DNA from: Lojkania enalia
Lineage: Eukaryota; Ascomycota; Dothideomycetes; Pleosporales
Assembly (NCBI GenBank): GCA_010094045.1
Contig: ML986581.1
Span: forward strand, 930,001-994,000
Length of the DNA stretch: 64,000 bases
Direction: 5' to 3'
Below the pieces are notes generated by a model. That model worked only from the letters and a program-made list of their open reading frames with translations. It searched no databases and was not told where the DNA came from. Below, in pieces: positions 32,949-50,574 of this stretch. Both the position numbers and the translations under genes were made by a program. The stretch's first letter is position 1. Every line of letters begins with the position of its first letter.

Positions 32949-35900
32949 TTATGATTCCACAGCGATCCTTGGTAGGTACAAGTAGGTATCCTCTAGGTGT
33001 TTAACAACATCCCCATTCTGCGTGCGGCTTCGGACAAGCTTCTGCGGAAACTTGCCTGTAAGCCGCCATGACGGCAAGCTTGCCAACGGGTTGTCTTCTT
33101 TCTCCAACCCTGCCTGTGCTCCCGGAGCGGGCTCAGCAGTGCCATTCGTGCTAACTTCATTCTTATTCCAACACAGGAACCTTGCACATAATGCCAGTAG
33201 ACCCTCATCTTTATCGTTTACGAGAACATTATTCTTCTTAGCAAAGCTTTCCCACTTCTCTCCTAAAGTGTCCCATCGTTCCTGATTACTCGCTTCCGAT
33301 TCTTCGGTTGTGCTCTCCGCTGGTACATATTTATCCTGTATTGAGGCGAGTATTGGCGCTGTTTTTCCGTCTTGAGCTGGGCTCTCGTATCTTGGCAAGA
33401 ACCAGTCGTCGCCATTTTGGCTTTCAGGTGGGACAAATCGGAAATCCATAACCCTCAATTTGGCTGCATCACTCGCTTTCAAGACCGGGATGAAGCTTTC
33501 AGCCAGTTTAGGGAGAGGCGCGGAGAGAACTAGGCCCATGGCTAATGGTGTAGTTGCGTCTTTGTGATTCAGCAGGGACGAAGCGGAGGTCTTCGAAGGA
33601 TCCGTGGAGGTATCGTATTTTCCAAAGGTAGCAACGGGAACGGGCTTGATGTCGAACTGCACGTTGGACCATCCACCAATCACCTCATCTATAGTTCTAG
33701 ATCTTATCGTGATAGTGAACTCGGATAGCATGGGTTCTTTCATTCGCATGGGGCGAGAATAGATCCTCGAATCTTCCGGTTTTAAAGAACCTAGCTGTAC
33801 ACCATCGCTCGGATTGCTTGTACTTGCGGCTATAGAAGCCGAGCTAATGGCGAAATCCGTAGCTATACGAAACTTGAAAGACCCGCCTTTAACATGCCAT
33901 AGGACGCCCGCACCCGTACTTGTTGGATCCGCTTTCTCACCCTGTTCTTCCACATCTTCATTTGTATGGCTGGACGGTGGGTTTGGGAAATTCCCGTCTT
34001 CGAGTGTGAACTTGAGTGCGGCACCTTCGACAATCTGTGGTTCTTCTTTATCAGAGGCTTCGGACTGGCTTGATCTATCGGCAGGCACGATCTCTGAAGT
34101 ATCGTAATAAACGATGCTTTGTAATCGCCTTAGATCGACATTAGTTTTCGAGTCGACGGGAGGGCCAGGATTGTGCATCATCATCCAGAATTGAAGAAGA
34201 TTAAGAGCAGGCGCTGGCTCGGGGCTTTCTCCAAAGTCAACGTCGAAAGCAAACAGATAGAAATCGACGCTGTGAGACATTGGTTAGTTATGGCGAAATG
34301 TTATAGGGAACGGGGTCACTTACTGCGCAATACCCCCGAACTTGGGGCCTTGGACCTCCAACCATGCTCCAACCGATACTTTAACATGATCATGAATGAA
34401 CAAGAAATCAATAGCCGCTTCCACACCGACAGACACCCGAAATTCTGCGCAGTAGTGTAGCGGGTGGAAGTTAATCAGGCAATCGAACTGCGCATCGAGC
34501 CAGGCCTTCACAATACCAATGTCTAGGCTAACATGTATCAATGCACCGCCCATCACGACCTTGGGAGTGACCGCAAAGTACGCTTCTCCGATTACACTTA
34601 AGCTCTTTCCGACGTTGAAGGCAACACCGACTCTTTTTGGCACGGGGTACCAAGCTGGCCTATCGTACTTGGGATGATAGCCGCCAACCGAGAAGACCCA
34701 GTCCCCAGCATGTGGATTCGATCCGAACCAATACACTAGAGCGAATCCGCCATACAAACGGCATTGCGGAACAAGCAGAAACGAAGTCGGTGCCAGAGCT
34801 GCCTCGGTTCGGAAATAGCCGTCACTAAAGTTGATTTCTGCTAGCATCCCGAGTTCGACATACACCAAACACTTGGACCTATCTGGCATATCTGGTGGCA
34901 TTTGTGCGACAGCATCAGCAAAAATGTTCAAAATGATGCCAGAGTCCCTAAATGCTAGCATGACTACTGCAGTCACTGTCAACACGTAAAATGCCTGAAT
35001 TGTCATACCTGCAGCGAACCAATACGCATCTCGCTTCGGCGTCACCCAGCTCCCGGGCGGATCCACCATTTTTTGGACGATTGCCATTGGGTCGTTGCCT
35101 ACCCCCATAGAGGATTTGTCGTTGATGAAGGGGAAGTCGAAGATCTCTTCAATCTTTGGAGTTCGGACGGATGAATTGAAACCAAAGCCAAGGCGAACCC
35201 CCGAGATAGTAGCGAATGCGAGCGTCACGAGTTTGCCATTCAGCTTTGCGTATAGGAAGATTGACTTGTAGCCGTTCATAATGGCGTATTCGCCTACACC
35301 AACAAAAGTATAGGGAACGAAGCCAATACCAATGCCTCCAAGGTATATCTCCTCTTTGCTCGGTAGGATTCGGTGCTCGAACCCGCCTGCTATGAGTACA
35401 GGGGGCTTGTCGAAGGTGAGACCCATTCCGTGGATCACGGGGGTCATAGACCCGAAGACGCTCGTTAGGTCGTTGAGCTTGATTTCGTCGAGGGGGACGG
35501 CAAATCCGAAACCCAGGAGCTCGAGAGTCATGGGACCCATGGCGAATTTCGCGTCTATGGTGATGGCAATGCTCTTTTTGCCGTTCTGTTCTTTGAACTG
35601 AAGGCTGACAGAATTGATTGCTAAAGGCCCAGCTTTAATCTCGAGAGCGCCTTTGGAGGGGGCGGATGGCGGAGGAACAGGCGGATTTGGCGTTGCTTTT
35701 ACAAGTGCACCGGTTTGTTTCGGTGGGACTAAATTTGAGTCCGATTTCGGGGACGTCTTAGTAGCAAAGATGTGATCAAGTATGGCTAATCCGCTTCGAA
35801 TCACCATGAAATGATGTCCAGGAGCAATGACGACCTTGTTTGCACTCTCCGGTGGACGTTTTTCCGCCCCCTGACCCGTTAATTTCCGATAATACAGTGT

Positions 35901-38327
35901 ACCTTGGCCTTGGAGTACTGAGCTGTTCAAAGCATCGACCTCAGCTTCGAGAATGCCTTTTTGCTTTATGTCTCCGGCTTCGTTAACCCAGACATACTCT
36001 AGCTGGTCGAACGGCTGTGCAAGTTCCCCAATAAGTGGGATCTTATCAATGAGAGGGATCTTATCTGCTGAAAATCGTAGCACCATCTTTGTCTTCTCTT
36101 TGACCTTGTTACCAATCTGTGCGAAAGTAAAGCTAAAGGAGCCGATAGCAATCCTGAACGCAAACAGAACTTGGTTTGCCCCAAACTTTTTAACTTTAAT
36201 CGTCACCGCCGCCTTGTCATTGGACGATGGTATAGCAATATCTTGGACGAATGGAGGTAGCAGGTCCGCGACATGATCTACGAGAGAGTTCATTACCGTA
36301 TATACTGTCGCAGTTTTGCCTTCTGAAGCTGACGTGCCTAAATCGCACTCGAACGACCAGTTCGTTTGCGCCTTTCCATCCGGTGCATATTGAACTTCTC
36401 CCAAAGCTTTGGTTCCATCTGGTAACACCGGCGTCCCAGCTGGGTTTATAGCATTTGCGGCAGTCTTATTACCAGCATAGGAACTAGCGTACTGATACAA
36501 CAACCGTAGCTGTAGCTCGCCGACTTGTACTACCCCAGTAAAAGTAAAGCTAGTTGCGGGTCCGCCAACTGTTCTCGTTTCTGTAGTACTACTGTCTTGT
36601 CCTTTGTCATACGTATAAGTTATCCGCAGTTCCGGAATACTTAATTTCCCAAGCACCGACTCGAGTGGGCCTTTATAGTCTGGATCGAAGGAGTCTAGGA
36701 GCATGGAGCCAGTGACACCTTCGGCGTAGCCGGTAAGTACCCAGTCTTTTGTGTTCGTATAGCTGACCATAAGCCCAAGGTCAGCCTTTTCTTTGGAATT
36801 TGGGGGTTGAAGGGTAAAGTGGGTGCTCATCATGCAAGAAAATTTTTCCTTCCCGATTGATAAGTTGACATCGAGCACATCCCATTTGAATAACTCAGGA
36901 ACTTTCGGCTCTGTCGAAGAAGAATCAGGTTCTGGGGGGCTGACTAGCTTTGCTGACAACCAGAGGACGCTGGAGGCCTTGTGATACGAGATGCTCGCCA
37001 TTGCGATTGCGAATGGAAGAACTGAAGGGATGGATTTTAGCTCCTCAGAAAGATCACGTATATCCCAGAATAATTTGTCCTGGCCGTGATTTGCGGGTGG
37101 GAAAATAGCTTGGCAGGGTTCAAAATCTGGTAACAGCTTGTCTTTTGTAGTAGTATAAAATCCCGCAAGTACAAGTCCACCGGAGAAAGTCCCTGAGAGG
37201 GAGTTATAGTCTAGATAGACTTCCATATCAGACCATGTGAGACCAAATGTTGCCATCCAAAACAGCTTGTTGTCGACATCCTTTCCTGCCGATAGGCGTA
37301 GAGGAATAACGTGCTTAAGAATACTGTCTTGAAGGGGTACTTCAAGTTTACTAGACAGGTGGGATTTGATGACGCTGAACATTCCTTCACCTTTATTCGT
37401 ATCTTCGGCCTCCTCCTCGTCTTCTAGGTTTACCTCTTTTTGCGTAATGGAGACAGACATTCCATTTGGCTTGAGGTGCACCCAGAGAGAGAAGAACTTT
37501 ACAGGAAACTGAATAGTCAGGCTATATGTGCTGTGAACTGACCATTCAATGGCCGAATCGTCTATATCATCGTCACCAAAATCGATAGGCAAGCCGTACG
37601 TTGTCTTCTGGACTAGTATGCGGGCCTCCGTGAGCGAGGATACCGTTAGACCAAAGTCCGAGATGGTTGATATGACCGCGGCAGGCACAGTCCCTATCTT
37701 GAATGCAAGAGCTGTGTCAATACGTAGTTCCTGACCTGGAGTCAGCCAGACGGCATTTCGGTCGGAATCGAGATCTATCTCGAGGAAAGTGGCGAGGCCA
37801 ATGCCGTTTACGATGTCCCTTAACAACGATACTTTTTTGGTCATAGGGACAACATCTTCGCTTTTTGGATCAGTGTCTCCGGCATCCTCTGACTGAATAT
37901 CTTTCGAATAAATGCCTTTCGGATCGCTTCCATGTGGATGGTTCTCATTCGAATCTGAATTGCTTGGTTCTGCCTCGATCTGCCAGCTTTCATCAGGAAC
38001 CTTGCCATCCTCCAAGACATCGAATGTAGACAAGACATCCTCAAATTTCAATTTCGCCGTTTTCGCTGTCTCTACATTCAACGGAAGGATGATAGAGTCG
38101 CCCACAATGTAGTCATTGTCTTTCGTAGCAAATTCAAATTGACTGAGGGGTCCTGTGCCCCTAAATGCACAAGTCAATGGTGGGTTCTCTTGTCGAGGCT
38201 CTCCCTCCTTGGATTCTGGAATGTTAAGAGCGCAATTAATGTCTGGATTGTCGAGGTAGTCCAGCCAGTCGGCGTGAGGCCCGTCTTGGTTCCGGTTGAG
38301 GATCGATAATAATGGATCCTCAGCCAT
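32949..38327 (-). CDS. Giant DUF6603-like protein of unknown function (2 exons)
   Basis: Exon 1 spans 38327-34324 and exon 2 spans 34269-32949. They are joined across a 54-nt intron (GTAAGT donor, CATAACTAACC branch, CTCACAG acceptor) to about 1774 aa. The splice makes GGIAHVDFYLFAF continuous. Residues about 930-1345 resemble what I recall of the DUF6603 domain found in bacteria and fungi: GFGFAVPLDEI, YLGGIGIGFVPYTFVGVGEY, FATISGVRLGFGFNSSVRTP and VFSVGGYHPKY. Before it lie repeated beta-rich segments, an acidic linker (about 120-155) and a Pro-rich linker (about 875-890). After it lie another beta-rich tail and acidic stretches. There is no signal peptide and no clear multi-pass membrane region. 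Function unknown. It is divergent from the four-helix membrane protein and opens the block of giant genes. Confidence 0.9.
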
Positions 38328-38807
38328 GGCTCCTGATTTTACGCATCAACTCAGCATAGAGCAAGGATCTGCTTTTCCGGTGATAAGAAATGAGAGTATG
38401 TGTATGAAGCACGCCTCATCCGTGTTTTGGGAGGTACCATCAAGATACTCAGGTTTAGCTCATCGTGTAATAAAACGGTTTAGACCGGTATAGAAAACCC
38501 ACATTGACCGAACTCTGAGGCCATGAAGTTTTCCAGCACCCGTTCCAATTCTCTTTGTCGTATGTTTTCAATTAATGATTCAACCTACAAGGTTTATTCT
38601 CCACTCCCCAGTTTGCGTGGTCGGCCGACCCTCGCCAACGCATAGCTCGTATTCTCGTCAAATATAATTTTTGCTCATGATCCTCTCTAAACTCGGCCAA
38701 TTTTTATCGTATCGGGAATTTACTTTATCGCCTGATATTATAGGTTAAAAAGACGTGCCCTGCATCGAATCTGCTGCCATTAGCGCAAAATACTATCGCC
38801 TCGCATT
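38328..38807. promoter_or_regulatory. Divergent intergenic promoter region
   Basis: 480 bp separate the start codons of the DUF6603-like gene (-) and the four-helix membrane protein gene (+). Both promoters must lie here, so shared control is possible. It is AT-rich toward the plus-strand gene. No clear TATA box was identified. Confidence 0.5.
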
Positions 38808-39605
38808 ATGGTCTACTATCGGCATTTTCGATTCGTGCCTGCGGCACTTGCCTTTTCCTTTGCAATCGTCGCTTTTGTTTTCGCAATACTGTCTATCACT
38901 TCGAAAGAATGGGCAGTTCGAGACAACTTTCTCCCTCAAGATCCGCCCAGAGATTGGAAAACTCCGTACTATACTCTCTACCGATCCCCATTTCAAATAT
39001 GCACGGCGCGCCAAGCTCAGGACCCAGAGTCAGGAGATGAAAATCCGCCTCCTCCTTTGGTCGAATGCATCCACTATAGGCCTTTCGGGCGCAACAAGAC
39101 TAGCTGCGAGCTAGAAGTCGTGACACAAGAGGATCAATCTGCCAATGTCGGGGATGCGCGACTCTGCCAACAGATTCACTATGTAGGAGACTTCATCATC
39201 GCAAGTACCTGCTTCATTGGTCTTGGTCTTATAACGACTGGCATCATGTTTCTACTCACTTTCCTCCGAACCCGTGAACGACAGCGTCACAGTGACAACA
39301 CTCGGACGGCGACTCATATTAACGTTGCGTTGCAGTTGTTCTTCTTTATTGGTTTCGCAACCGGGATAATATCTCAATTCTACGCAATTCTTGCTTTCAT
39401 TCAGTCACTTCCCAACCAGGCCGACTTCGCATCCAGCAGTGGAGTGGGTGGTAGTGAGGAGACAAATGTTTACGGAAATCATGGGCCATGGTACCAGGGG
39501 AAAGGATTAAGCGTGTATGTGACGTGCGCGTGGGCTTTTGCTGCTGCAGCTGGCGTGACAGCAAGTAGAACTTGGAAATTGCCGAATTGGAGTGTGCTGG
39601 CCTAA
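38808..39605 (+). CDS. Claudin/SUR7-like four-helix membrane protein
   Basis: Single exon, 265 aa. Four hydrophobic segments at about residues 10-31, 128-152, 172-198 and 233-252 give a tetraspan layout. The first extracellular loop is long (about 95 residues), holds four cysteines (65, 87, 100, 120) and an NKT glycosylation site (Asn96). The Cys-rich first loop and short cytosolic ends recall fungal SUR7/claudin-like plasma-membrane proteins, though the exact family is uncertain. A basic RTRERQR loop follows helix 2, consistent with the positive-inside rule. It is 480 bp from the divergent DUF6603-like gene and 335 bp upstream of the S8 peptidase on the same strand. If the block is a system, this could be its membrane component (inference). 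Confidence 0.82.
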   Translation: MVYYRHFRFVPAALAFSFAIVAFVFAILSITSKEWAVRDNFLPQDPPRDWKTPYYTLYRSPFQICTARQAQDPESGDENPPPPLVECIHYRPFGRNKTSCELEVVTQEDQSANVGDARLCQQIHYVGDFIIASTCFIGLGLITTGIMFLLTFLRTRERQRHSDNTRTATHINVALQLFFFIGFATGIISQFYAILAFIQSLPNQADFASSSGVGGSEETNVYGNHGPWYQGKGLSVYVTCAWAFAAAAGVTASRTWKLPNWSVLA

Positions 39606-39940
39606 ATATATTGATATAGCATATTGGATCATTTAGCTCACTTTACCTATCTAAAATAACTATATTTAGCGAACGTAACCTGATCTTGAACACAGGATAA
39701 CGTAGGACTTAACTCATATGATATGTGCATGCTATAGTATCTGTGGGAGACATGATGCGATGCCAGCTCTAGTGCAAGGCTAACTTTGGGAGCTAACATG
39801 GAGCATTGCATCTCGTATCTCGGAAGCTTCTACAGTACTAATCACTCCTCATTCGAAGATAATCATTTCAGTATCTTGTCACAACATTTGAGCAACGATA
39901 AATTCAAAATCGACGCCAGAAGTCCGACCCCGTTTCGAAG

Positions 39941-42175
39941 ATGGAAGGCTTGGAGATTGGCCTCAATGGAAATCTTGTTGACGCTGAAACACAACAAGAG
40001 GGAGGGAGGTTCTTTGCCGCTGACGCATCATCAAGCAATTATATTTTGTTGCAATGCAAAGACGTTCTGACTCTCGAACAAAAAGAAGAGCTCAAGCGCC
40101 TGCACGTGACGCTTCTAAGCTATCCTGCCTACAATACATACTATTGTCGATACGAGCCGACGGAGCTGGACGAAATCAGAGCGTTGCCATATATCAATTA
40201 CGCGAACATTTATCGACCGGAGTTTGTCACAGAGGCAGGGCTCAAAGACAAATTGGAAAATAGTGATGAAGGCCATCAACCACCGGAGGAAAAGCGTTAC
40301 GAAGTGTACATAAGTCTTCATGAGGACCACCGTAATCGGTTAGAACAGATCCGTCAAAAGATAATCCAGGTCCTAGGGATAGATCCAGAACTGGTCAATG
40401 CCGATGCATTCATTTTGCGCGCTAAGTTACAATCGCATGAAATTGCACGTGTTGCAGGGATCGACGAAGTACAGAGAATTGAAGAAATACCAAGGCTAGC
40501 ACTCTCCAACAATCACGCACGGGTTGATCTAAACCTTGAATACATAATTGGCGCCGCCAATTCAAGGCTTGTGGTAGGAGGGGGATTGGGCCAAATAATT
40601 GCAATTGCTGACACTGGCGTTGACGACCAACATGAGGCGTTAAGAGGTCGTGTCCGCGTCATTGAGGGAAGTAGGAATACAGACGCCAGAGGACATGGAA
40701 CCCATGTAGCTGCAAGCGCAATTGGAAGTGGCAACTCTCTGGAATTCGGACCCATACAAGGTACTGCGCCGTTTGCTACGGTCTTGTCTCATGTCATAGT
40801 GGACAATGCCGGCAATATTACTTGGAGTCCACTGATGTTCCAAAGAGCCTACAATAGAGAATACGGTGCTCGCATCCACAGTAACTCATACAACGTATCA
40901 CATGCAGGGATCTTCCAACAGCGTCAATACGACGGATTAGCGCAGGATTGCGATCGAATGGCCATATGTTTACCCCAGTTAGTAATTTTATTTTCGGCTG
41001 GAAACTCTGCGCCGTTCAAAAATGTTACAAGTGATGGAGAGATCGAATCACAGGCAGCTGCTAAGAATGTGATAACAGTTGGAGCTTGCGAGTCGACGCG
41101 ACCAATGACTAGAAACCCTCTTACCTATGACTACTATGTCGCCGTGCCCATACCGGGTTATTTGGCTTTAAACCTGGCTGGGAACCGTGATCAAATGGCA
41201 TTGTTTAGTAGTAGGGGCCCTACAAAGAATACAAACGGTGGTCCGGACGATAGACGCATCAAACCTGATGTAGTTGCGCCTGGTACGGTCATATACTCTG
41301 CAAAATCTTCACAGCTCGATCTCACATTACCTAATATCTTGCCTGGTGCCATAGAAGCCGGAGTGCCAAATGATGGTCGATGGTCGTATATGAATGGGAC
41401 AAGTATGTCAACGCCACTAGTTGCGGGGTGCTGCGCAACTATTAGGGGAAGGATTGCACTCCAATGCCATAATCTTGCTAGAATACCCAGCGTTCTAGTT
41501 AAGGCTATTCTCATAAACGGTACGAAGTGGATGGTTGGGACGAACCAGGACTCACAAGGTTTTGGGAGAGTCAATCTCGCAAAGTCAATGGTGTGCTTTT
41601 CAAATCACTTGGGATGCGGGTTTTGGCCAAAGCAGGAAAGTGACTTTGCCCGGATGCAAATGATACAAGGCCAGGAACTGAAAATTCGAGTACCATTACC
41701 AACAGCTAACCCATATCCTGACGGGATTACACCAAGGTTTTCACTGACAGTTACCATGTGCTACCTCGATTATCCTGATCAGTCCGGTCTGGTTGATCAT
41801 CTCTCCTTAAAAGTCCTTCAAAAAACCAGACTCCCTGATGGAACGTTCCCTGAGCGATACGGAAACAAGCTTCCTGGAGAGCCTGCCGACAATCGGAATA
41901 ATGTCCAGAAAGTTATATGGGACGGTATAAGTGCTCCTGCTCCTTTCCAGCACCCCGATCCATTTCGAATTTACGTTAGGGTGGAACGTCTTGCACGGGA
42001 TGCGCAATTTCTGCATCATTTTGCGCTGGCTTGGCATGTTGAAGAGATGAGCAGAGGTGATGCACAATTTGATTTTTGGAATGAACGGATGCCTTCTACC
42101 GATGCTCGTAATAGGGTATATAGACTTGCACAAGGAGTTGCGGCTGCACCTCGGTGGCGTATAATTCGTAGATAG
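39941..42175 (+). CDS. Subtilisin-like serine peptidase (S8), no signal peptide
   Basis: Intronless, 744 aa. The catalytic triad is complete: Asp224 in IADTGVDDQH, His252 in GHGTHVAAS, Ser488 in NGTSMSTPLVAG, with the oxyanion Asn355 in FSAGNS. Residues 1-200 form an N-terminal region that could be an I9-like propeptide or a sensing domain: YEVYISLHED and LEQIRQKIIQVLG look like a prodomain fold. Residues about 570-744 form a C-terminal extension that may be a beta-sandwich (jelly-roll), as in KP43-type subtilases. No secretion signal is seen at the N-terminus, which is unusual for fungal S8 enzymes and suggests an intracellular role or unconventional export. It is convergent with the 1180-aa giant gene (141 bp between stops). 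Lack of introns and domain layout are compatible with a bacterial origin, which is inference. Confidence 0.93.
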   Translation: MEGLEIGLNGNLVDAETQQEGGRFFAADASSSNYILLQCKDVLTLEQKEELKRLHVTLLSYPAYNTYYCRYEPTELDEIRALPYINYANIYRPEFVTEAGLKDKLENSDEGHQPPEEKRYEVYISLHEDHRNRLEQIRQKIIQVLGIDPELVNADAFILRAKLQSHEIARVAGIDEVQRIEEIPRLALSNNHARVDLNLEYIIGAANSRLVVGGGLGQIIAIADTGVDDQHEALRGRVRVIEGSRNTDARGHGTHVAASAIGSGNSLEFGPIQGTAPFATVLSHVIVDNAGNITWSPLMFQRAYNREYGARIHSNSYNVSHAGIFQQRQYDGLAQDCDRMAICLPQLVILFSAGNSAPFKNVTSDGEIESQAAAKNVITVGACESTRPMTRNPLTYDYYVAVPIPGYLALNLAGNRDQMALFSSRGPTKNTNGGPDDRRIKPDVVAPGTVIYSAKSSQLDLTLPNILPGAIEAGVPNDGRWSYMNGTSMSTPLVAGCCATIRGRIALQCHNLARIPSVLVKAILINGTKWMVGTNQDSQGFGRVNLAKSMVCFSNHLGCGFWPKQESDFARMQMIQGQELKIRVPLPTANPYPDGITPRFSLTVTMCYLDYPDQSGLVDHLSLKVLQKTRLPDGTFPERYGNKLPGEPADNRNNVQKVIWDGISAPAPFQHPDPFRIYVRVERLARDAQFLHHFALAWHVEEMSRGDAQFDFWNERMPSTDARNRVYRLAQGVAAAPRWRIIRR

Positions 42176-42316
42176 GTAAATTATCATTTGCTCTAACCGC
42201 TTTCAGTTCATGCGCAAAGATTGACACGTCAAAGATACACAAAAATAGACCACTAGGTAGAGAGCTAGTATGAACGAAATTCCTTGAGTAAGACTAGCCT
42301 ATTCTTTCGCCTATTC

Positions 42317-45300
42317 TCACATTTCTATCTCTTGATCATCTCTTGTCTTTAATTTCAGAACCGCATAACTGTTCACAACTGCTTCACCCTCCGGATGTGC
42401 CGCAGTACTATACCATTCAGACCAAGTAATCAGTACCTTTCCCACTCCTACCATCTTTTCCTTCCCTTCCATCTCCACGTAGGTCTCTTTTCCAGGAGTA
42501 GTGGGAGCAATGTTCGTCTCTGCAAGCCGAAAGCCTAGCTCTACTGTTTTACGATCATTACAGAGTAACTTATAATCGAAATTGGCTGCTCTAGGCACTA
42601 AGATGACATGCAAGAATGGCTTTGTGGCATCATTCTGCAAAATGGGTACGAAGAACTGGTTGCTGAGCATGCGCACACCAGGACCGTCATAATTTCGCCC
42701 CAACAGAGCTTCGTGCGCCCGCGGTGTACTTTCTATAGGAATGTCAAAGACAATTTTGATGAGCTTGTCCGTAGATGTCTTGGAAGTGGCTCGCTTGCGG
42801 ATACTGAAGATCAGATCGAAGTAGAATATATTTTCTGTGGGGATATAGTCGTTTGCTGGGTACTTTTCCCGCCCACCTCTAGCTGGCTGACGAACTGGCG
42901 GATTCCGATAGTCTGGAAAGATGGTGAGGCTAAAGTTACTCTGTGGAGTAGATGATGCGGCAAATTTTGCGGCGGATGAAGCCATTGAAACAGAAGACTT
43001 CAATAGCGGCTGGAAGGGCTGAACAAGGAGCTGGTTATGGGGCGTTTGGGTTGTCCGTAGCGTTGCGTTTTGTGTCTGTTTCGCTTTGCCAGCTGCTCCA
43101 GATTTGACCTTCTGAATTTTGACTTGCTTTTGAGTAGCTCTCAGTCTGGGGCTTATGCTGTCTTTCTCTCCTAGTAGCACCCTTGTGGTATTCTGTTCGC
43201 GTACAAAGAGCGCCCGCTGTCGGGGGCGAGGAGTTTGATCGACACCTAGTGGAGGGCGGATCTTGAAATAATAACTCGGGTCATTAAGCTCGAGACCTAG
43301 TTCACAGGAGTTCGGCGTAGGATCATTGTAAGCCTCCTTTCCTACCTGACCTAGTTCCCTATTGATCTCGCTCGCCATTTTGCTTATGTATAGGCATCTG
43401 GTATCGAAATTGAGCCATTCACTTGCGTTGGAATTAATTAGTTTCTTTTCATCTGGAGAAATCCCAGGACTGCTAGTGTAGAGCTGACGAAAGACGTAAT
43501 CCACCTTCTTATTCTCGGCATTTATTCCAGATCCAAGAGCAAATCTTTGCTGATGCTGTGGTTGAGCTAACACAATCGAGTTTAGTTCTTCTGGCTCCCT
43601 ATCGAGAAGACACATTAAAGTCTGATCATCCCATCTTGTCCATCTGCACACAGGGAAGCGATTATCCGAATTATTCCAATTTACTGTAATTCGCAAGTCC
43701 GGCATGGCTTTGACAAGTTTGGATCGGATGATAAAGCCGTAGCATGGGATCTGTGGTTTGAAGCCTGCTTCCGGGACATCGGTTGCGAGATACTCGTTGA
43801 ATCGCTTCTTAATCTCCCTTCGAACAAAATCGTCGTCCTCATCTAAATGGTTTGCAACAGAGAGAGCACCATCGAGAAGGCAGTCAAGCCAGAAATCGTC
43901 AATATGGAAAAAGCGAAGGGATTCCGGAGGGACAAAGGATGGCTCTGGGATAATGTACTGAGGAGGAATGCCACCCAAGGACAGCTTCTCTGCCATCCAA
44001 GAATGAATGATTGGCCAATCACTATTGCTTGGGCCTTCTTTATTGAAGCCATTGTACAAGATAGGCGCACCGTGTTCGTCGGTTCCAGCTCCTGTGATTT
44101 CCTCAATAGAGTGCCTCAACTCATCTGTAAATACTGGGAGGGCCTCTACATCTTTAACGTCTGTCGCGACCTGACGATCACTAGGTGCTCTGATCCTGTG
44201 GGAGACAGATGTATCGCCGTTACTCTCGTCGCGAATGGATGCCACTGCGCCTGCAATAGCTTGTATTACAACTGTTTTAGAATGCATACCGTTCATTATC
44301 ATCCTCGCACTATCGGCTGAAGTATTCCGCACGACTGAGCGGAATCTCATTAACGCGGAATTGAACGCACAGTCGGAGATTGCTAGCAACTTCCCGAGCT
44401 GCCAGGCTGAAGAATAGGATAGGTCCATTAGACCAGTCTCAGGATCAAGGATCTGGTAATCCTGGGAATTTGTGGAACAGTCTGGCATTGTCACCGGCGC
44501 GGGTGGATGAGGAGCTTTCAAAGGTATAAGCGGACCACGCGTGAAAGCACTTGTCTCCTCCCCAGTTTGAGTTCTCCACCTCGCTAGAGTATAGCCTCTC
44601 TTTAGTCTTTCTGCAAGGGCTTTGGAGGGACCGTTCTTCGTTTCCATAGTGTCTAGCTTCGATATAATCTTATCATCTGCCCTCAGCATTTGCTGGTTCT
44701 CCGTCAAGTTTCTCATGGTCGAGACGAAGTTGACGGGATCAGCAGGCAGAGCTGTATAAACCCAAGAAAATAGAGACACCATTCCCACACGTTCTTCTAT
44801 TGCTACCTCGCTTTTGATTGCCCATGTGCCAAGAGTGGAATCTAAATGCTCAATTGATACAAGATGGCAGATCTGCGTTCGAGGTTGGGTCATATTGGTG
44901 GATAACTCTTTCCATTTATTGTCCTCTAGAACCATTTCCTTCAGTGCCCCAGTACGACTCGCAATTACAATGGAGAAAAGACCCTCTTGCTCAATCCCTG
45001 CATCTGGACAGCCTTCAGTGTTAATATGGCGCACGTGAGCCAAGTACTTATATTGTTCGACTCCGATGCAGTCTGTCTCTTTGATGCCATCACTCGTACT
45101 CACCTGTATCTTGTCCGTGAACATAGACTGGATTAAGCTTTTTCTAGGGAAAATGATGTCCACAGGGTCAGCCAAGCTCGCTAGAGATGTGAATTCCTTT
45201 CGATCATTGTATCCGGCGGCATAGTTGATTTGTGCAGACTTGTTGATTTTGCCAAAATAATCTGAGATAGGCATAGAGAAAGTCCCACTGCCGTTCTGCT

Positions 45301-45859
45301 TCCCCATGTCCGTTTCCTCGGTGAAACCCGGCAGATTCAATGCCTTAGCTTCTTCCAGCTTAGACAAGTGTAGGTCAGCAGGATCGAAAACCAAGAGGGC
45401 AACCCATGGCACCATATTTCTGGGGTCATCTTTCGAGCTTCTAGCCTCAGAGCTTCTGGTCGTGATTCCAGCTGCGATTTCCCACGGGTAATGTGGGTCG
45501 TTGAGGACTAGATGCGGCAGTATCCTCCCCTCATCCTCATGTCCGTCAGGCGGATAATAGCTATTGATGATATTTCTATCCAAAGAAAATCTAGGAACCA
45601 CCACCTCGAATTCCTGTGGCTTTATAGCGTGCTTCGGATCCGCATCGGCCGATGTGTTCGTAACTTCTAGATGCTCTTCACCGGAAGATATTCTCTGAGT
45701 GGCCTCGATTTCGTAGAAGCCGGCTTGGAGACTAGGCTTGTAGAAGCTGTATAATCGCATCTGATCTTTCTCCAACTTCTTAGGGTCTGTGACTTCGGGC
45801 TCGCGAGCGTTGCGGACAGCTCTGGCCATGTGGCCATCGGTTAGCTTTCGAGCGGACAT
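42317..45859 (-). CDS. Giant orphan protein (1180 aa)
   Basis: Intronless, 1180 aa from the ATG at 45859; the frame is open five codons further, but only with a GTG. No family I can name with confidence. Near the N-terminus are conserved-looking patches: INSYYPPDGH (about residues 98-107), LPHLVLNDPHYPWE (114-127) and PWVALLVFDPADL (151-163). The body is mixed alpha/beta. A basic Gln/Ser/Thr-rich linker (about 900-985) separates a C-terminal domain of about 195 residues. There is no signal peptide, membrane helix or nucleotide-binding motif. It is divergent from the 1386-aa giant over a 554 bp promoter region and convergent with the S8 gene. A structural or assembly role is conceivable, since the patches recall large uncharacterised bacterial proteins (recollection, unverified). 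Confidence 0.88.
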   Translation of the reverse strand: MSARKLTDGHMARAVRNAREPEVTDPKKLEKDQMRLYSFYKPSLQAGFYEIEATQRISSGEEHLEVTNTSADADPKHAIKPQEFEVVVPRFSLDRNIINSYYPPDGHEDEGRILPHLVLNDPHYPWEIAAGITTRSSEARSSKDDPRNMVPWVALLVFDPADLHLSKLEEAKALNLPGFTEETDMGKQNGSGTFSMPISDYFGKINKSAQINYAAGYNDRKEFTSLASLADPVDIIFPRKSLIQSMFTDKIQVSTSDGIKETDCIGVEQYKYLAHVRHINTEGCPDAGIEQEGLFSIVIASRTGALKEMVLEDNKWKELSTNMTQPRTQICHLVSIEHLDSTLGTWAIKSEVAIEERVGMVSLFSWVYTALPADPVNFVSTMRNLTENQQMLRADDKIISKLDTMETKNGPSKALAERLKRGYTLARWRTQTGEETSAFTRGPLIPLKAPHPPAPVTMPDCSTNSQDYQILDPETGLMDLSYSSAWQLGKLLAISDCAFNSALMRFRSVVRNTSADSARMIMNGMHSKTVVIQAIAGAVASIRDESNGDTSVSHRIRAPSDRQVATDVKDVEALPVFTDELRHSIEEITGAGTDEHGAPILYNGFNKEGPSNSDWPIIHSWMAEKLSLGGIPPQYIIPEPSFVPPESLRFFHIDDFWLDCLLDGALSVANHLDEDDDFVRREIKKRFNEYLATDVPEAGFKPQIPCYGFIIRSKLVKAMPDLRITVNWNNSDNRFPVCRWTRWDDQTLMCLLDREPEELNSIVLAQPQHQQRFALGSGINAENKKVDYVFRQLYTSSPGISPDEKKLINSNASEWLNFDTRCLYISKMASEINRELGQVGKEAYNDPTPNSCELGLELNDPSYYFKIRPPLGVDQTPRPRQRALFVREQNTTRVLLGEKDSISPRLRATQKQVKIQKVKSGAAGKAKQTQNATLRTTQTPHNQLLVQPFQPLLKSSVSMASSAAKFAASSTPQSNFSLTIFPDYRNPPVRQPARGGREKYPANDYIPTENIFYFDLIFSIRKRATSKTSTDKLIKIVFDIPIESTPRAHEALLGRNYDGPGVRMLSNQFFVPILQNDATKPFLHVILVPRAANFDYKLLCNDRKTVELGFRLAETNIAPTTPGKETYVEMEGKEKMVGVGKVLITWSEWYSTAAHPEGEAVVNSYAVLKLKTRDDQEIEM

Positions 45860-46413
45860 AATGGCAGGTACCACGGCTAGGCATTCGTCAAAGAATAAAC
45901 CTCAAAAGGATTATACTTGAGGATCTATAATATCCATACAGGAAATTATATCGACACCTACGTCGATTAGGCCCCTGGGGCTCGGGCGGCGACGGGACCG
46001 CGCATGCTGCCAGCAGAATCGCCCCGCTCGAACTCACAATTTTGATCGCAACACGATCCCACTGCATCCGTTAGCGAAGAGCGCAGAATTACCGACCACA
46101 TGATCTATTGCATAGGATGTGAGGCTGCACTTGAATATGCATCTCCCGAGGTCGAATAGCAAAGTCGTCGCGTGAGGTGATGTTCTATGAGTGTCTCACG
46201 CCACGAAGGAATGTACACTATAGTTGCTGGTGCTAATCCTGCCTATTGCATTAAATAACGTACCATATTGCGTTAACGGAACTACAGGTTTCGGAGGCAC
46301 AACAAAAATCAGTCCCGTACCTCACCCAGACAGGACATTGCAGTTGCTCTCTGAATTTGCCTAAGGCTCTGCCTCGTAAGCAATAAGCCAACCGACCCTG
46401 TTCTCTCCGTACA
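45860..46413. promoter_or_regulatory. Bidirectional promoter between two giant genes
   Basis: 554 bp separate the ATG codons of the 1180-aa (-) and 1386-aa (+) genes, so both promoters lie here. The head-to-head arrangement supports joint regulation. A GC-rich patch lies at about 45965-46035. No clear TATA box was recognised. Confidence 0.55.
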
Positions 46414-49400
46414 ATGGCCACCGAGGAGCTCCCCAACGTCTGCATACCAATGCACTTGGATGCATTTGTCTTGTCGCCTGCTCTTTGCGACGAGTCAAAA
46501 AGATCCAAGATCGCGCCGTTCACTCAGCCAAATTATACCGCTCTTCGTCTTGACGGCCAGTTTCTGAAACACGACCTACTTGATCACATTGATTTCCATT
46601 CTTCGCAACCCGCAACTCGAAATCCGCGTATAGCTGATATCGGTGCTGCATCTCCAGGTAATCTCAAGCTTCATCGACTGGGGGTTCATCTGTCATGGTC
46701 ACTTCCCAGATTCTATCGAACAGCAATAGCAAGTGGACGCGGTACGATTAGCAATGGTAAAGATCCTTCACAGCCTGTTTTCCGCCAAATACCAAACCGC
46801 TGGCTTATCACCCGCCGTCTCAAAAATATGAGTGATGCGCCTATCGATTTTCCAGAATATCAAAGCTGGGTCGTGGAAAGTGATGTCGTCCAAAATATTA
46901 AGACAATCTCCGCAGAGGCTGACCTGGAAAGCGATGTATCACCATTTGTCTCATACAAAGGTGATTCCAACGACCCAGATGTCCTCAATGCACAAACGGA
47001 GGTCTTTTTGGGCCAGAAGTTTGACCTTAGGGACTATCCTAGCCCTCAAAAACGCGACTATCTCCGAAATGGATTGACAATAATGAGTTCGTCCAATTCC
47101 CTGTTTGCCGATTTTGCCCTTCATAACTGCAACGTCTTAAGTATTATCGACAATTTTGCGTATAAACGCAGCACAAATGACAGCAACCCAAGGGATGAAC
47201 GCTGCAGTTATCTCGCAAAGGCCTTGTGCGATTATTACGTTGTGGGATGGCATCACGATCCGGAGGTCGATCCTTTCAATATGGGCGTCGGAACTAAGGA
47301 TGTTGACTTAACAACACGCCTCAGGAATTTGATGCTGAAACTTAGTCCCTCCGAGGCAAGCGACTTGGGAAAGTATAAAAGTTCTACGGGCGCGACAAGA
47401 TGCTTGGTTCATGGAGCAATCTACGATGTGATGTATGAGTTTTCAGGCCAGCCTCAGCGTAGTTTAGTTGAAGAAGCCGCGCAGCTGTTCGCAAACCCTG
47501 GAAATCAACTACCGCTGAGCACAGAAGAGCTAAAAAAGTTGCCACCAGACGAGGCTGCCCGAAAAAGGCTCGAGTACGAAAGAATGGAGCCATTGTCGAT
47601 TGGGACAACGCCTTTGGATGCTATTCTGACCTTTCTAGAGGCGCATCAAAGTGATAGTGAGGAGGAAAATATCTTTGGGCCCGGTGGATCGGGGCTGTGC
47701 AACAAGGTTGTTGAGTTGGCACAGTTGCTGTACGCGGCTGCGGATGGCTACGATGCTCGTGTCCAAGCCCAAGACTTGATAGCCCAACAAAACTTTTCCA
47801 GATCTGAGGGCGGCTCTCACTGGACGCTTGCAACAGCAGATCAAGCAAGGAGCGGCAAACCTAAGACGCCCACAGCCGAGGAGAAGGGAAAGCTGCAGGA
47901 ACTAAATGAAAAACAGCTGCAACTCGACGCAAGTATGCGCAAACTCCGTGCACTGAGGTGGGAACTCTTCGCCGAATGGTTCAAGTTCAAGAGCGAATTC
48001 CTTCCACAAGTAGGGCGACAGAAGCTGTTTGATATGTACAAACGGCGGGTGAATGCAATCTTGGACATGATCAAGGGTCACGATTCATCAGGTGGACCAG
48101 TGATAGGGTTGCTAACCCAGATAAAATCGCTTAGGGAGGATATTGAAAATATACAAAGGGATGTGGACTGTAAGGTTTCTGCTGATGAACCTTTTAGAAT
48201 CCGTTTAGACCCAACACTTTGCATTGCTGGGCTAGATTCTGGGTGGCCTGTGGACGTGATGGAGATGCTCCAAGTACGGCTTGATAGCGAGTTAACAAAT
48301 GACGACTCACAAGCGAAAGCAATATTTGGTTCCTTGTCGAACCCTATAACTAATACACACGGGCTGCAAAGCACTGCGAAAAAGATCCTTGCAGAATCGC
48401 TCAGTCGGTCGAACTCAAAGGCGCAAAATGGAACATCTGGATTGGTGAACATAACTGGCTTTCAATCATGGAATAGTACGAACCCTTTCGTTCCCTTGAT
48501 AATAGAATGGGAAGCGATTTACTATCACATACGCAAGGAGTCCTGGGATGTGCAGCTCCGACCTAGTCCTGTTGGGCATCCGCACCCTCAGTTCCGATAC
48601 GTTCCTGGTAGTAAGCCACTTCTTTCAGATCCTAGCAATAGCACCAATCAACAAGACTTTCGCACCTTGAGCGGCAGAGTACCGGTATTACCACAACCAT
48701 TGTTCAACCTACAAGATGTCGTTCTTCAAGTGCTCGATAGCAACTCACCAGAAATCCCTGTCGATATCGATCGCGATACTCTGAAAAAACAACTTCAGCA
48801 GATCAAAATTATATCAGCGCCATTGACTGGTATCATGAGCCACCTTCTTACAAGATGCGAAGGGGCGCATGTTAAGCCCAATGTTAGAACGCAAGGGGAG
48901 GTCGTGATTCCATTAGCTGCGGCGAACGCTAGCGACATCAATATGGGGATCGAAAACCTGGCCTTGGTGGATTCAGAGAGTACATTGACGCCATACGGGT
49001 CTCTGATGTCCTTTGGGAAAGACAGGTACCCGCAGAACCCGTTTAAGCCGGTCACACATGGGCAAATGCTCCTCACCAAACTCAACATTGTCGATAAATT
49101 TGGTCAAGCAATATGCCTGCCATACTCAAATAGACGTCGAGTGCACGAGACTAACCCTCCAGATGCAGGTATTTACCCGTGTCTGAGTGACTATCTTTCC
49201 CCCGACATCCTAAAGACATCACCCGATTCTGCAATAGGTTTTTTAAACACAGTTTTTCCTACGCCCGAAACACAGGAAAGGCAGTGGCCAGTCTGCCAAT
49301 TTATCCAGCTTACCCCCAGCATCAATCAAGATGCGCGCATCAATGCTGCATTCCTCATCCAGGATACAATCTCTTCCCAAATGCAGACATACTCACCTTG

Positions 49401-50574
49401 GCGTGAAACTACAGACTTCGAGTCGCCAATCTGGGGTTGGCTGGTTATTAATTACGCCAATAACGGTCTACAGTTCTTCCTCGGCGATGGAACCTTCTAT
49501 CGGGAAGTTAGGAGAGGCGGAGTACTTGGCGCGCATGTCTCCACAAAATGGCTACCTTATGACCCTCCATCGAAAGGACTTGAGCCGACAGATGCAGGGA
49601 CACAACAACTGGATGAACTGCTCAAGCAGCTCTCACACGAAGTTGATCAGGACGGAGAATATTTGCAAGCCTTCTTCAACATGATCAATAGATCGATCCA
49701 AAATATGCCATTTCCTCCGTCAAGTTATGCAGGCTATGCAAACGCTATCGTGGGCAAGCCACTAGCGCTTATCAATGTTGGTTGGAGTATAGAGCTGGCC
49801 GAGCCACCGATTAAGCCACAGTTCGACTCGTTGGAGGAGCGGCCTAATGACTGGAAGGACGAGCTCTTGCGGTACAACTTCGAGCTCAAAGTTGGAGATC
49901 ACGAACGAAATTTCGATGGCGTAGTAGGCTACTTCCACTCTGCAAATTCGACTTCACCAACTCCTGGCGTGTCTCAGACCAATTTCGACACCCTATATAC
50001 ATACTTCCCGCCCACAAAGCCGCATAGCAAATTTAAAGAATTAAAAGACGAATATCCAACGCTAAACCCATACTACATCGATCCGGAACCTTCAATCACG
50101 CCAAACATGACTTCCGCCAAGAATAGTAAATACTTTGTGACATCCATGCTCATGGATCCGTACACTGCAATTCACGGGTATAGTCCCATTCTTCCGACCA
50201 AATCGCTCACTATACCACCTTGGACAATTCAAACAGCAATGGACAAAATGCACGCTTTCTTCCGACTAGGTCCATCGCTCTTCACCGTCGACGTTCCAAC
50301 CACGTATGAGCAGGCCGTGAAGCCTAAGGACGATGGTAGTAAATGGGGCGTTAGGTTGCCGCTGAGCGGGCAGAAGGGCACGTGGACCTGGTTGCAGCCA
50401 TATGCTCAAGAAGGCTGGGGTGAGGATGGAAATGAGAAGGTAGCAAAGTTTGCGCAATTGGATGTCGTAGAGGACCAGGGGGAAAGAAAGTGGGAAAGCA
50501 GCCCATATACATTTTTGGAGGGCTATTTGCAGTTAATGGGAAGGTTAGATAATCAAGGCGGAAGGATACAATGA
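46414..50574 (+). CDS. Giant orphan protein (1386 aa)
   Basis: Intronless, 1386 aa; ATG in good context (ACAATGGCC). No named family recognised. The N-terminus holds MHLDAFVL (about residues 13-20), GVHLSWSLP (90-98) and IPNRWLITR (126-134), patches I associate loosely with large uncharacterised bacterial proteins (unverified). A charged helical segment (about 487-590), with KLQELNEKQLQLD and LREDIENIQRD, should form a coiled coil. The last 900 residues are mixed alpha/beta with no catalytic signature I can see. No signal peptide or membrane helix. Together with its divergent neighbour it forms the core of the giant-gene block; one may need the other for stability or assembly (inference). Confidence 0.88.
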   Translation: MATEELPNVCIPMHLDAFVLSPALCDESKRSKIAPFTQPNYTALRLDGQFLKHDLLDHIDFHSSQPATRNPRIADIGAASPGNLKLHRLGVHLSWSLPRFYRTAIASGRGTISNGKDPSQPVFRQIPNRWLITRRLKNMSDAPIDFPEYQSWVVESDVVQNIKTISAEADLESDVSPFVSYKGDSNDPDVLNAQTEVFLGQKFDLRDYPSPQKRDYLRNGLTIMSSSNSLFADFALHNCNVLSIIDNFAYKRSTNDSNPRDERCSYLAKALCDYYVVGWHHDPEVDPFNMGVGTKDVDLTTRLRNLMLKLSPSEASDLGKYKSSTGATRCLVHGAIYDVMYEFSGQPQRSLVEEAAQLFANPGNQLPLSTEELKKLPPDEAARKRLEYERMEPLSIGTTPLDAILTFLEAHQSDSEEENIFGPGGSGLCNKVVELAQLLYAAADGYDARVQAQDLIAQQNFSRSEGGSHWTLATADQARSGKPKTPTAEEKGKLQELNEKQLQLDASMRKLRALRWELFAEWFKFKSEFLPQVGRQKLFDMYKRRVNAILDMIKGHDSSGGPVIGLLTQIKSLREDIENIQRDVDCKVSADEPFRIRLDPTLCIAGLDSGWPVDVMEMLQVRLDSELTNDDSQAKAIFGSLSNPITNTHGLQSTAKKILAESLSRSNSKAQNGTSGLVNITGFQSWNSTNPFVPLIIEWEAIYYHIRKESWDVQLRPSPVGHPHPQFRYVPGSKPLLSDPSNSTNQQDFRTLSGRVPVLPQPLFNLQDVVLQVLDSNSPEIPVDIDRDTLKKQLQQIKIISAPLTGIMSHLLTRCEGAHVKPNVRTQGEVVIPLAAANASDINMGIENLALVDSESTLTPYGSLMSFGKDRYPQNPFKPVTHGQMLLTKLNIVDKFGQAICLPYSNRRRVHETNPPDAGIYPCLSDYLSPDILKTSPDSAIGFLNTVFPTPETQERQWPVCQFIQLTPSINQDARINAAFLIQDTISSQMQTYSPWRETTDFESPIWGWLVINYANNGLQFFLGDGTFYREVRRGGVLGAHVSTKWLPYDPPSKGLEPTDAGTQQLDELLKQLSHEVDQDGEYLQAFFNMINRSIQNMPFPPSSYAGYANAIVGKPLALINVGWSIELAEPPIKPQFDSLEERPNDWKDELLRYNFELKVGDHERNFDGVVGYFHSANSTSPTPGVSQTNFDTLYTYFPPTKPHSKFKELKDEYPTLNPYYIDPEPSITPNMTSAKNSKYFVTSMLMDPYTAIHGYSPILPTKSLTIPPWTIQTAMDKMHAFFRLGPSLFTVDVPTTYEQAVKPKDDGSKWGVRLPLSGQKGTWTWLQPYAQEGWGEDGNEKVAKFAQLDVVEDQGERKWESSPYTFLEGYLQLMGRLDNQGGRIQ

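Follow-up and report, generated by a model that had tools for sequence, protein, structure and literature searches.

A trio of giant genes in the fungus Lojkania enalia recurs in other fungi and in bacterial operons

The stretch of DNA analysed here, called the window below, comprises 64,000 nucleotides of the 58.1-Mb assembly of the Pleosporales ascomycete Lojkania enalia (contig C4, positions 930001-994000). It contains a block of five adjacent genes, three of which encode giant proteins: a protein of 1774 amino acids with a DUF6603 domain, and two proteins of 1180 and 1386 amino acids without a named family, p1180 and p1386. These three genes (the trio) form one system, and our confidence in this is high: they recur together at a second locus of the same genome, in other fungi and in bacteria, and because of this recurrence their adjacency is beyond chance. 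The initial annotation of the window had proposed that these giant proteins belong to an undescribed set, are inherited together and have relatives in bacteria, and in this it is supported. That the trio represents, in fungi, an operon conserved in bacteria and probably acquired once, and that its products form one membrane-engaging complex, is a further reading to which we give an even chance. The features of the block are, in window positions:

32949..34269, minus strand: exon 2 of the DUF6603 gene, to residue 1774 and stop (splice model; the PF20248 match crosses the intron to position 34008)
34270..34323, minus strand: 54-nt intron of the DUF6603 gene (borders GTAAGT...CACAG, in-frame stop inside)
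34324..38327, minus strand: exon 1 of the DUF6603 gene, residues 1-1334, with the DUF6603 domain from residue 896 (open reading frame (ORF); Pfam PF20248, E 7e-122; splice model)
38808..39605, plus strand: small membrane protein, 265 amino acids, also beside the trio at the second locus, C239 (ORF, genome match, hydropathy)
39941..42175, plus strand: S8 peptidase, 744 amino acids, a neighbour of the trio without a copy at C239 (Pfam PF00082, E 1e-35; triad-type motifs)
42317..45859, minus strand: p1180, 1180 amino acids, ATG at 45859, no named family, encoded in bacteria by a single ORF or by two (ORF, homologues)
46414..50574, plus strand: p1386, 1386 amino acids, no named family (ORF, homologues)

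All coordinates and sizes of the five ORFs were reproduced, and so was the single 54-nt intron with its canonical borders, whose removal yields the 1774-residue protein. The DUF6603 identity is also firm: exon 1 alone scores 407.9 bits in Pfam against a gathering score of 27, and the domain scores 417.8 bits in the genome search. Besides DUF6603 and Peptidase_S8, a Pfam scan of the five genes gave no match over the cut-off for the remaining ORFs.

A profile search of the contigs found PF20248 at two places in the Lojkania enalia genome, the window and contig C239. The membrane protein matches C4 and C239 only, p1180 matches C4, C239 and a fragment at C297, and a p1386 relative is present in the C239 stretch by tblastn. 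Thus, four of the five families form a repeat cluster at C239, the S8 peptidase being the exception. The two clusters are deeply diverged, with identities of 29-43% in the main pieces and 55% in one piece of 40 residues, and they are rearranged: the order at C239 is p1180 (minus), membrane protein (plus), p1386 (minus) and DUF6603 (plus), within about 16 kb, while in the window it is DUF6603 (minus), membrane protein (plus), S8 peptidase (plus), p1180 (minus) and p1386 (plus). The membrane protein, present in both trio loci of this genome, is rightly regarded as a companion of the trio. Its description as a four-helix protein is plausible only: a simple hydropathy scan places three segments over the threshold in the window protein and four in the C239 paralogue. 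The poverty in introns, which had been taken as a hallmark of the block, is not a trait of the families, as the C239 relatives of p1180 and p1386 each align in three pieces. The C297 fragment (G000:C297:12500-13276) resembles part of p1180 and contains four in-frame stops, being either a relic or an intron-broken gene; tblastn found no further trio match within 20 kb around it.

In bacteria, the trio has the layout of an operon. The first 12 bacterial loci (L019-L030; six from a scan of bacterial and archaeal genomes and six of the eight plasmid records with p1386) carry the genes in the order DUF6603, p1180, p1386 on a single strand in 9 cases, according to profile searches of the ORFs. The exceptions are L019 and L021, which start at contig edges, and L028, where DUF6603 is missing and p1386 comes in two pieces. 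Some of the copies are carried on plasmids. Two distant p1386 relatives, P0047 and P0048, can be aligned with the fungal proteins over the full length. A single ORF encodes p1180 in 8 of the 12 loci (L020, L024-L030), and in the other 4 it is split over two, so the idea that it is a fusion made by fungi was dropped. The operons at L021 and L022 are nearly identical (end branches of 0.05 and 0.06) and come from genome bins titled Sedimenticola (Pseudomonadota) and Polarisedimenticolaceae (Acidobacteriota), respectively; this reflects either misbinning or recent transfer.

As these 12 loci had been found via p1386, further loci were picked by PF20248 alone. This domain was found in 9 of 398 genomes (phylum of G004), 16 of 395 genomes, 15 of them over the cut-off (phylum of G001), and 5 of 199 genomes (phylum of G002), the three phyla being taken as Pseudomonadota, Bacteroidota and Acidobacteriota, respectively. 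Leaving aside one weak match (G510) and places already in the set, 29 neighbourhoods were examined. Nineteen have a DUF6603 of the class found with the trio (the triad class; E<1e-100 with profile A4), and in every one of them all three genes lie within 20 kb, 16 with exactly the order and strand DUF6603, p1180, p1386 and three (L058, L059, L068) in another order. The initial annotation had suggested looking for the same set within about 20 kb in other genomes, and would have abandoned its claim had the homologues been scattered and never adjacent; they are adjacent at C239, in other fungi and in bacteria.

The presence of the genes is also reciprocal. In the sample of 398 genomes, the p1386 profile A11 and DUF6603 pick out an identical set of 9 (Fisher p 1.6e-18). 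In the phylum of G001, A11 marks 9 of 395 genomes, of which 8 have a triad-class DUF6603 and the ninth, G001 itself, holds the contig-edge locus L019 (p 8e-12). Eight of the 12 rows of A11 stem from the sampled genomes or from the locus anchoring one sample, so their own matches are expected; the informative point is that the sole genome with p1386 and without DUF6603 is G001. All seven genomes that have DUF6603 over the cut-off and no p1386 belong to a second class, described below.

The homologue lists, for which about 8000 candidates were scored each, hold at least 48 proteins for p1386, at least 173 for p1180 (the best 120 of the 173 matches were examined) and at least 86 for DUF6603. Of the 22 named fungal DUF6603 proteins judged to carry serial locus tags, 13 have a p1180 or p1386 relative no more than four locus-tag numbers away among the matches listed; this is a lower bound, since each sequence cluster displays one name. 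They belong to Exophiala sideris (three consecutive genes), E. xenobiotica, Fusarium beomiforme, Xylographa soralifera, X. trunciseda, Trapelia coarctata, Naviculisporaceae sp. PSN 640, Pyrenodesmia sp., Squamulea sp., Cladophialophora chaetospira, Zymoseptoria brevis, Rachicladosporium sp. and Spizellomyces punctatus, a chytrid. When nine loci are compared in all 36 pairs, the identities of the three families covary (rho 0.93, 0.86 and 0.87), with p-values that overstate the significance because the pairs share loci. One p1386 relative from a metagenome (P0021) has a LysM domain (PF01476) in its C-terminal part.

In a p1386 tree of 56 rows, a single branch with a support of 100 and a length of 2.2 divides the 24 bacterial rows from those of fungi (19) and metagenomes (13); being unrooted, this tree only separates the two sides. 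The DUF6603 tree could be rooted on the second class and places all 23 fungal rows in one clade (support 100) inside the bacterial triad class (forks of 92 and 81); it holds 62 of 63 rows, one triad row having been lost, with six rows of the second class less than half filled and several long bacterial branches. Because the fungal clade is nested in this way, one ancient transfer from bacteria to a fungus is likely and would be the simplest reading, with moderate support from the trees. The initial annotation had considered an acquisition from bacteria; given the bacterial operon and the nested fungi, this is likely, but the event must be old: the GC content at third codon positions (GC3) is host-like (0.42-0.50 across the block and 0.44-0.63 in eight neighbouring ORFs), which speaks against a recent transfer, and the fungal clade is deep. 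Within the fungi, the trees depart from the species order: Fusarium oxysporum groups with Decorospora and Lojkania, while the latter's two copies stand far apart. As the rows do not track the species, there has been duplication and loss, perhaps with transfer among fungi.

The gain of bacterial operons is described for yeasts of the Wickerhamiella/Starmerella clade (PMC13376923, PMC11952965), and there too, linked bacterial genes are reported to stay together in the fungal genome. The trio differs in consisting of giant proteins without an assigned function, in being much older and in its presence in a chytrid. To our knowledge, bacterial operons acquired by fungi are metabolic; in the trio, fungi have likely gained an entire machine from bacteria instead of a metabolic pathway.

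The second class of DUF6603 (class B) accounts for 10 of the 29 neighbourhoods (L048, L060-L063, L065-L067, L070 and L071), with E-values of 1e-16 to 1e-33 to profile A4 and no match to p1180 or p1386. One further large gene is common to all ten loci and a second one is present in eight, in the layout DUF6603, about 1050 amino acids, about 1700 amino acids, all in one direction. As these large partner genes recur across the loci, class B resembles an operon parallel to that of the trio; the partner genes of L060, the single set scanned, have no Pfam match. The N-terminus of the middle gene weakly matches the N-terminus of p1180 (hhalign probability 56%, E 1e-4), whereas the last gene is not related to p1386 and the DUF6603 proteins form a separate clade. 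Comparisons of p1180 with p1386, of the class B last gene with p1386 or p1180 and of the class B middle gene with p1386 likewise found no relation. Weaker DUF6603 matches exist on haloarchaeal plasmids. On a Halalkalicoccus plasmid (L074, 7218-25383), the archaeal DUF6603 gene stands between large hypothetical genes and adjoins a giant gene annotated as BGTF surface domain-containing.

Neither p1180 nor p1386 scores above a Pfam or NCBIfam cut-off, and they have no PHROGs or PADLOC match at E 0.01 and no match to a sequence of the protein data bank PDB at E 1; three profiles searched against the PDB sequences returned 0 matches. PHROGs gave nothing for DUF6603 exon 1, p1180, p1386 or the DUF6603 protein of L022. 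One of the three giants carries Pfam DUF6603 far above the cut-off, but this is a domain of unknown function, and neither partner genes nor an operon are described in the open-access literature searched, where no paper on DUF6603 or PF20248, and none on Lojkania enalia, was found.

The AlphaFold2 model of the fungal DUF6603 relative P0186 consists mostly of long antiparallel strands (predicted local distance difference test (pLDDT) 75, predicted template modelling score (pTM) 0.63; residues ~500-710 mostly >90), and the alternation of hydropathy along the core strands is 3.29, compared with 1.40 +- 0.24 in shuffled sequences (0/2000 as high). DUF6603 is therefore predicted to be an all-beta and strongly amphipathic protein. 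All nine Foldseek matches of the model at E<=0.001 are outer-membrane proteins (SDBC/SlpA, SprA, PiuD, PapC, FimD), with template modelling (TM) scores of at most 0.22. By these models, DUF6603 shares its strand pattern, and not a proven fold, with outer-membrane beta-proteins: ushers, SlpA, SprA and TonB-dependent receptors have long antiparallel amphipathic strands as well, but the trio shows no obvious signal peptide in its first residues (inspection by eye only) and DUF6603 occurs in fungi and Gram-positive bacteria. A viral Foldseek library returned six matches at E<=0.001, with TM scores of at most 0.13, two of them to named tail proteins. The p1180 model (pLDDT 83, pTM 0.66) has no Foldseek match at E<=0.001, its top matches being Ig-like or fimbrial domains that cover at most 1/10 of the query by TM. 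The hydropathy scan places no segment of p1180 or p1386 over the threshold.

A further gene accompanies the trio in part of the bacterial loci. In 14 of 31 bacterial triad loci, a profile search detected a fibre-like family with an Ig-like start next to the trio or in its vicinity; since 13 of the 14 had supplied the profile itself, only L029 is new, and several of the 20-kb stretches end before the expected place. A Peptidase_S74 domain is over the cut-off in the fibre-like gene of L056 and just under it in L058, and the gene of L027 has a PLAT domain. At L026, the first 250 columns of the tandem copies are ~80% alike, whereas the final 90 have diverged (8/43 and 8/29 aligned positions), a pattern that reads as a constant stem with a variable tip; at L027, the copies are most alike in the middle and only one reaches into the PLAT part. 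The operon copy at L026, on a Streptomyces plasmid, lies a few kb from genes annotated as a CATRA conflict system and a CHAT-domain protein (L026, 1-4581).

Genes that stay so tightly linked across such distances usually encode one physical machine, and we can propose a mechanism with low to moderate confidence. The trio proteins would be made and assembled in the cytoplasm, as the apparent lack of a signal peptide suggests. The large amphipathic beta-sheet of DUF6603 would either bind lipid or close up to form a pore, and p1180 and p1386 would serve as scaffold. In bacteria, the fibre-like protein may turn the device into an appendage for contact or recognition; in fungi, the small membrane protein may dock the complex at the membrane. 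At its widest, and tentatively, this would be an undescribed machine of bacteria and fungi: a lipid-engaging assembly of three giants with exchangeable fibre tips by which bacteria might recognise or act on other cells, captured once by fungi and kept there as a duplicating, patchy cassette docked by a membrane protein.

Several points weigh against the reading of the trio as an acquired operon for one membrane-engaging complex. The forks that nest the fungi within bacteria have supports of 92 and 81 only and the branches are long. The structural argument comes from P0186, which is 37% identical to the window DUF6603, and not from the window protein itself, at the model scores given above; with TM scores as low as those of the nine best Foldseek matches, a barrel is not established. 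Two hydropathy stretches flagged in DUF6603 itself could mean a different membrane mode. That the three giants associate physically is a prediction. Nine of the 22 fungal DUF6603 entries have no partner seen among the matches listed, and a profile search found no fibre-like gene in the window or the C239 stretch; because of the latter, the fungal role may differ.

The trio could alternatively be the body of a phage-tail-like or injection-type particle, with the fibre binding a target cell and cargo being delivered. The constant stem and variable tip at L026 would suit such a particle, as would Peptidase_S74, which likens the bacterial gene to phage tail fibres and spikes with intramolecular chaperones; the fibre part of L056 moreover has three phage matches, two to proteins annotated as tail fibre and one to a hypothetical protein, and a Pfam Collar protein was found near L058 (2 of the 14 scanned neighbours with a match). 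On a Paenibacillus polymyxa plasmid (L025, 1-2773), about 9 kb separate the start of the operon from an annotated phage baseplate V gene on its upstream side, behind which come pentapeptide, GH-E nuclease and ankyrin genes. The trio itself, however, differs from phage fibres in having no phage relatives at the sensitivity used, with no PHROGs match and no match of p1386 when 50,697 phage records were searched; the neighbours scanned, which were part of all neighbours, showed no sheath, tube or ATPase gene, and the fibre gene was not found in the fungal loci. We consider a particle unlikely. To a similar degree we doubt an intracellular lipid-handling complex without a role between cells, in which DUF6603 would be a lipid-binding beta-belt (as in ApoB) or a lipid bridge and p1180 and p1386 its partners. 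Strand amphipathicity far above the shuffles speaks for it, and ApoB100 is at Foldseek rank 20 for the P0186 model, but at E 8.5e-3 and a TM score of at most 0.12, and the patchy spread over genomes (9/398, 16/395, 5/199) and the carriage on plasmids are unlike housekeeping genes.

The same system could also have arisen without transfer from bacteria to fungi, by very old vertical descent with many losses or by transfer from fungi to bacteria. A deep fungal clade that takes in a chytrid and the host-like composition would fit this history; it is nevertheless improbable, given the position of the fungi inside the bacterial triad class when the tree is rooted on class B, the much larger diversity of the bacterial sequences and the operon arrangement in bacteria. 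A chance neighbourhood of unrelated genes has next to no probability: nothing speaks for it in the case of the trio, for which the repeated linkage at C239, in fungi and in bacterial operons and the reciprocal presence refute it, and it may still hold for the S8 gene, which was absent from the other loci tested. The trio is a set of giant proteins, two of three from nameless families, that has been kept together and mostly in order across deeply diverged bacteria and again in fungi. Its function has gone unseen in many fungal genomes, and the operon is open to testing in bacteria that can be cultured, Streptomyces clavuligerus (pSCL4) and Paenibacillus polymyxa.

The S8 peptidase is a neighbour of the trio rather than a supported member. 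Its identity as such is clear (Peptidase_S8, 123.9 bits against a gathering score of 21.8), and it has DTGVD at 224, GHGTH at 251 and GTSMSTP at 486, the Asp/His/Ser triad-type motifs. Its membership of the system, in which it had been proposed as a processing peptidase, finds no support: tblastn found no match in the C239 stretch, the one relative found elsewhere in the genome (at C82) is 32% identical, and six bacterial loci searched for S8 gave no match. Weak matches of the S8 protein to a defence peptidase of the IetS type stay far below the NCBIfam equivalog cut-off (15.4 bits against 900), with E 1e-9 at best to PADLOC IetS.

The deposited Lojkania enalia model of p1386 has 1321 amino acids; its best local alignment is 99% identical and spans 73% of the 1386-residue frame (window 46414-50574), and for this reason the model may hold a spurious intron or exon. 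Genes of the metallo-beta-lactamase fold stand directly upstream of the bacterial trio at L041 (5481-7637) and L056 (13839-15512), and Lactamase_B was found in 3 of the 14 scanned neighbour proteins.

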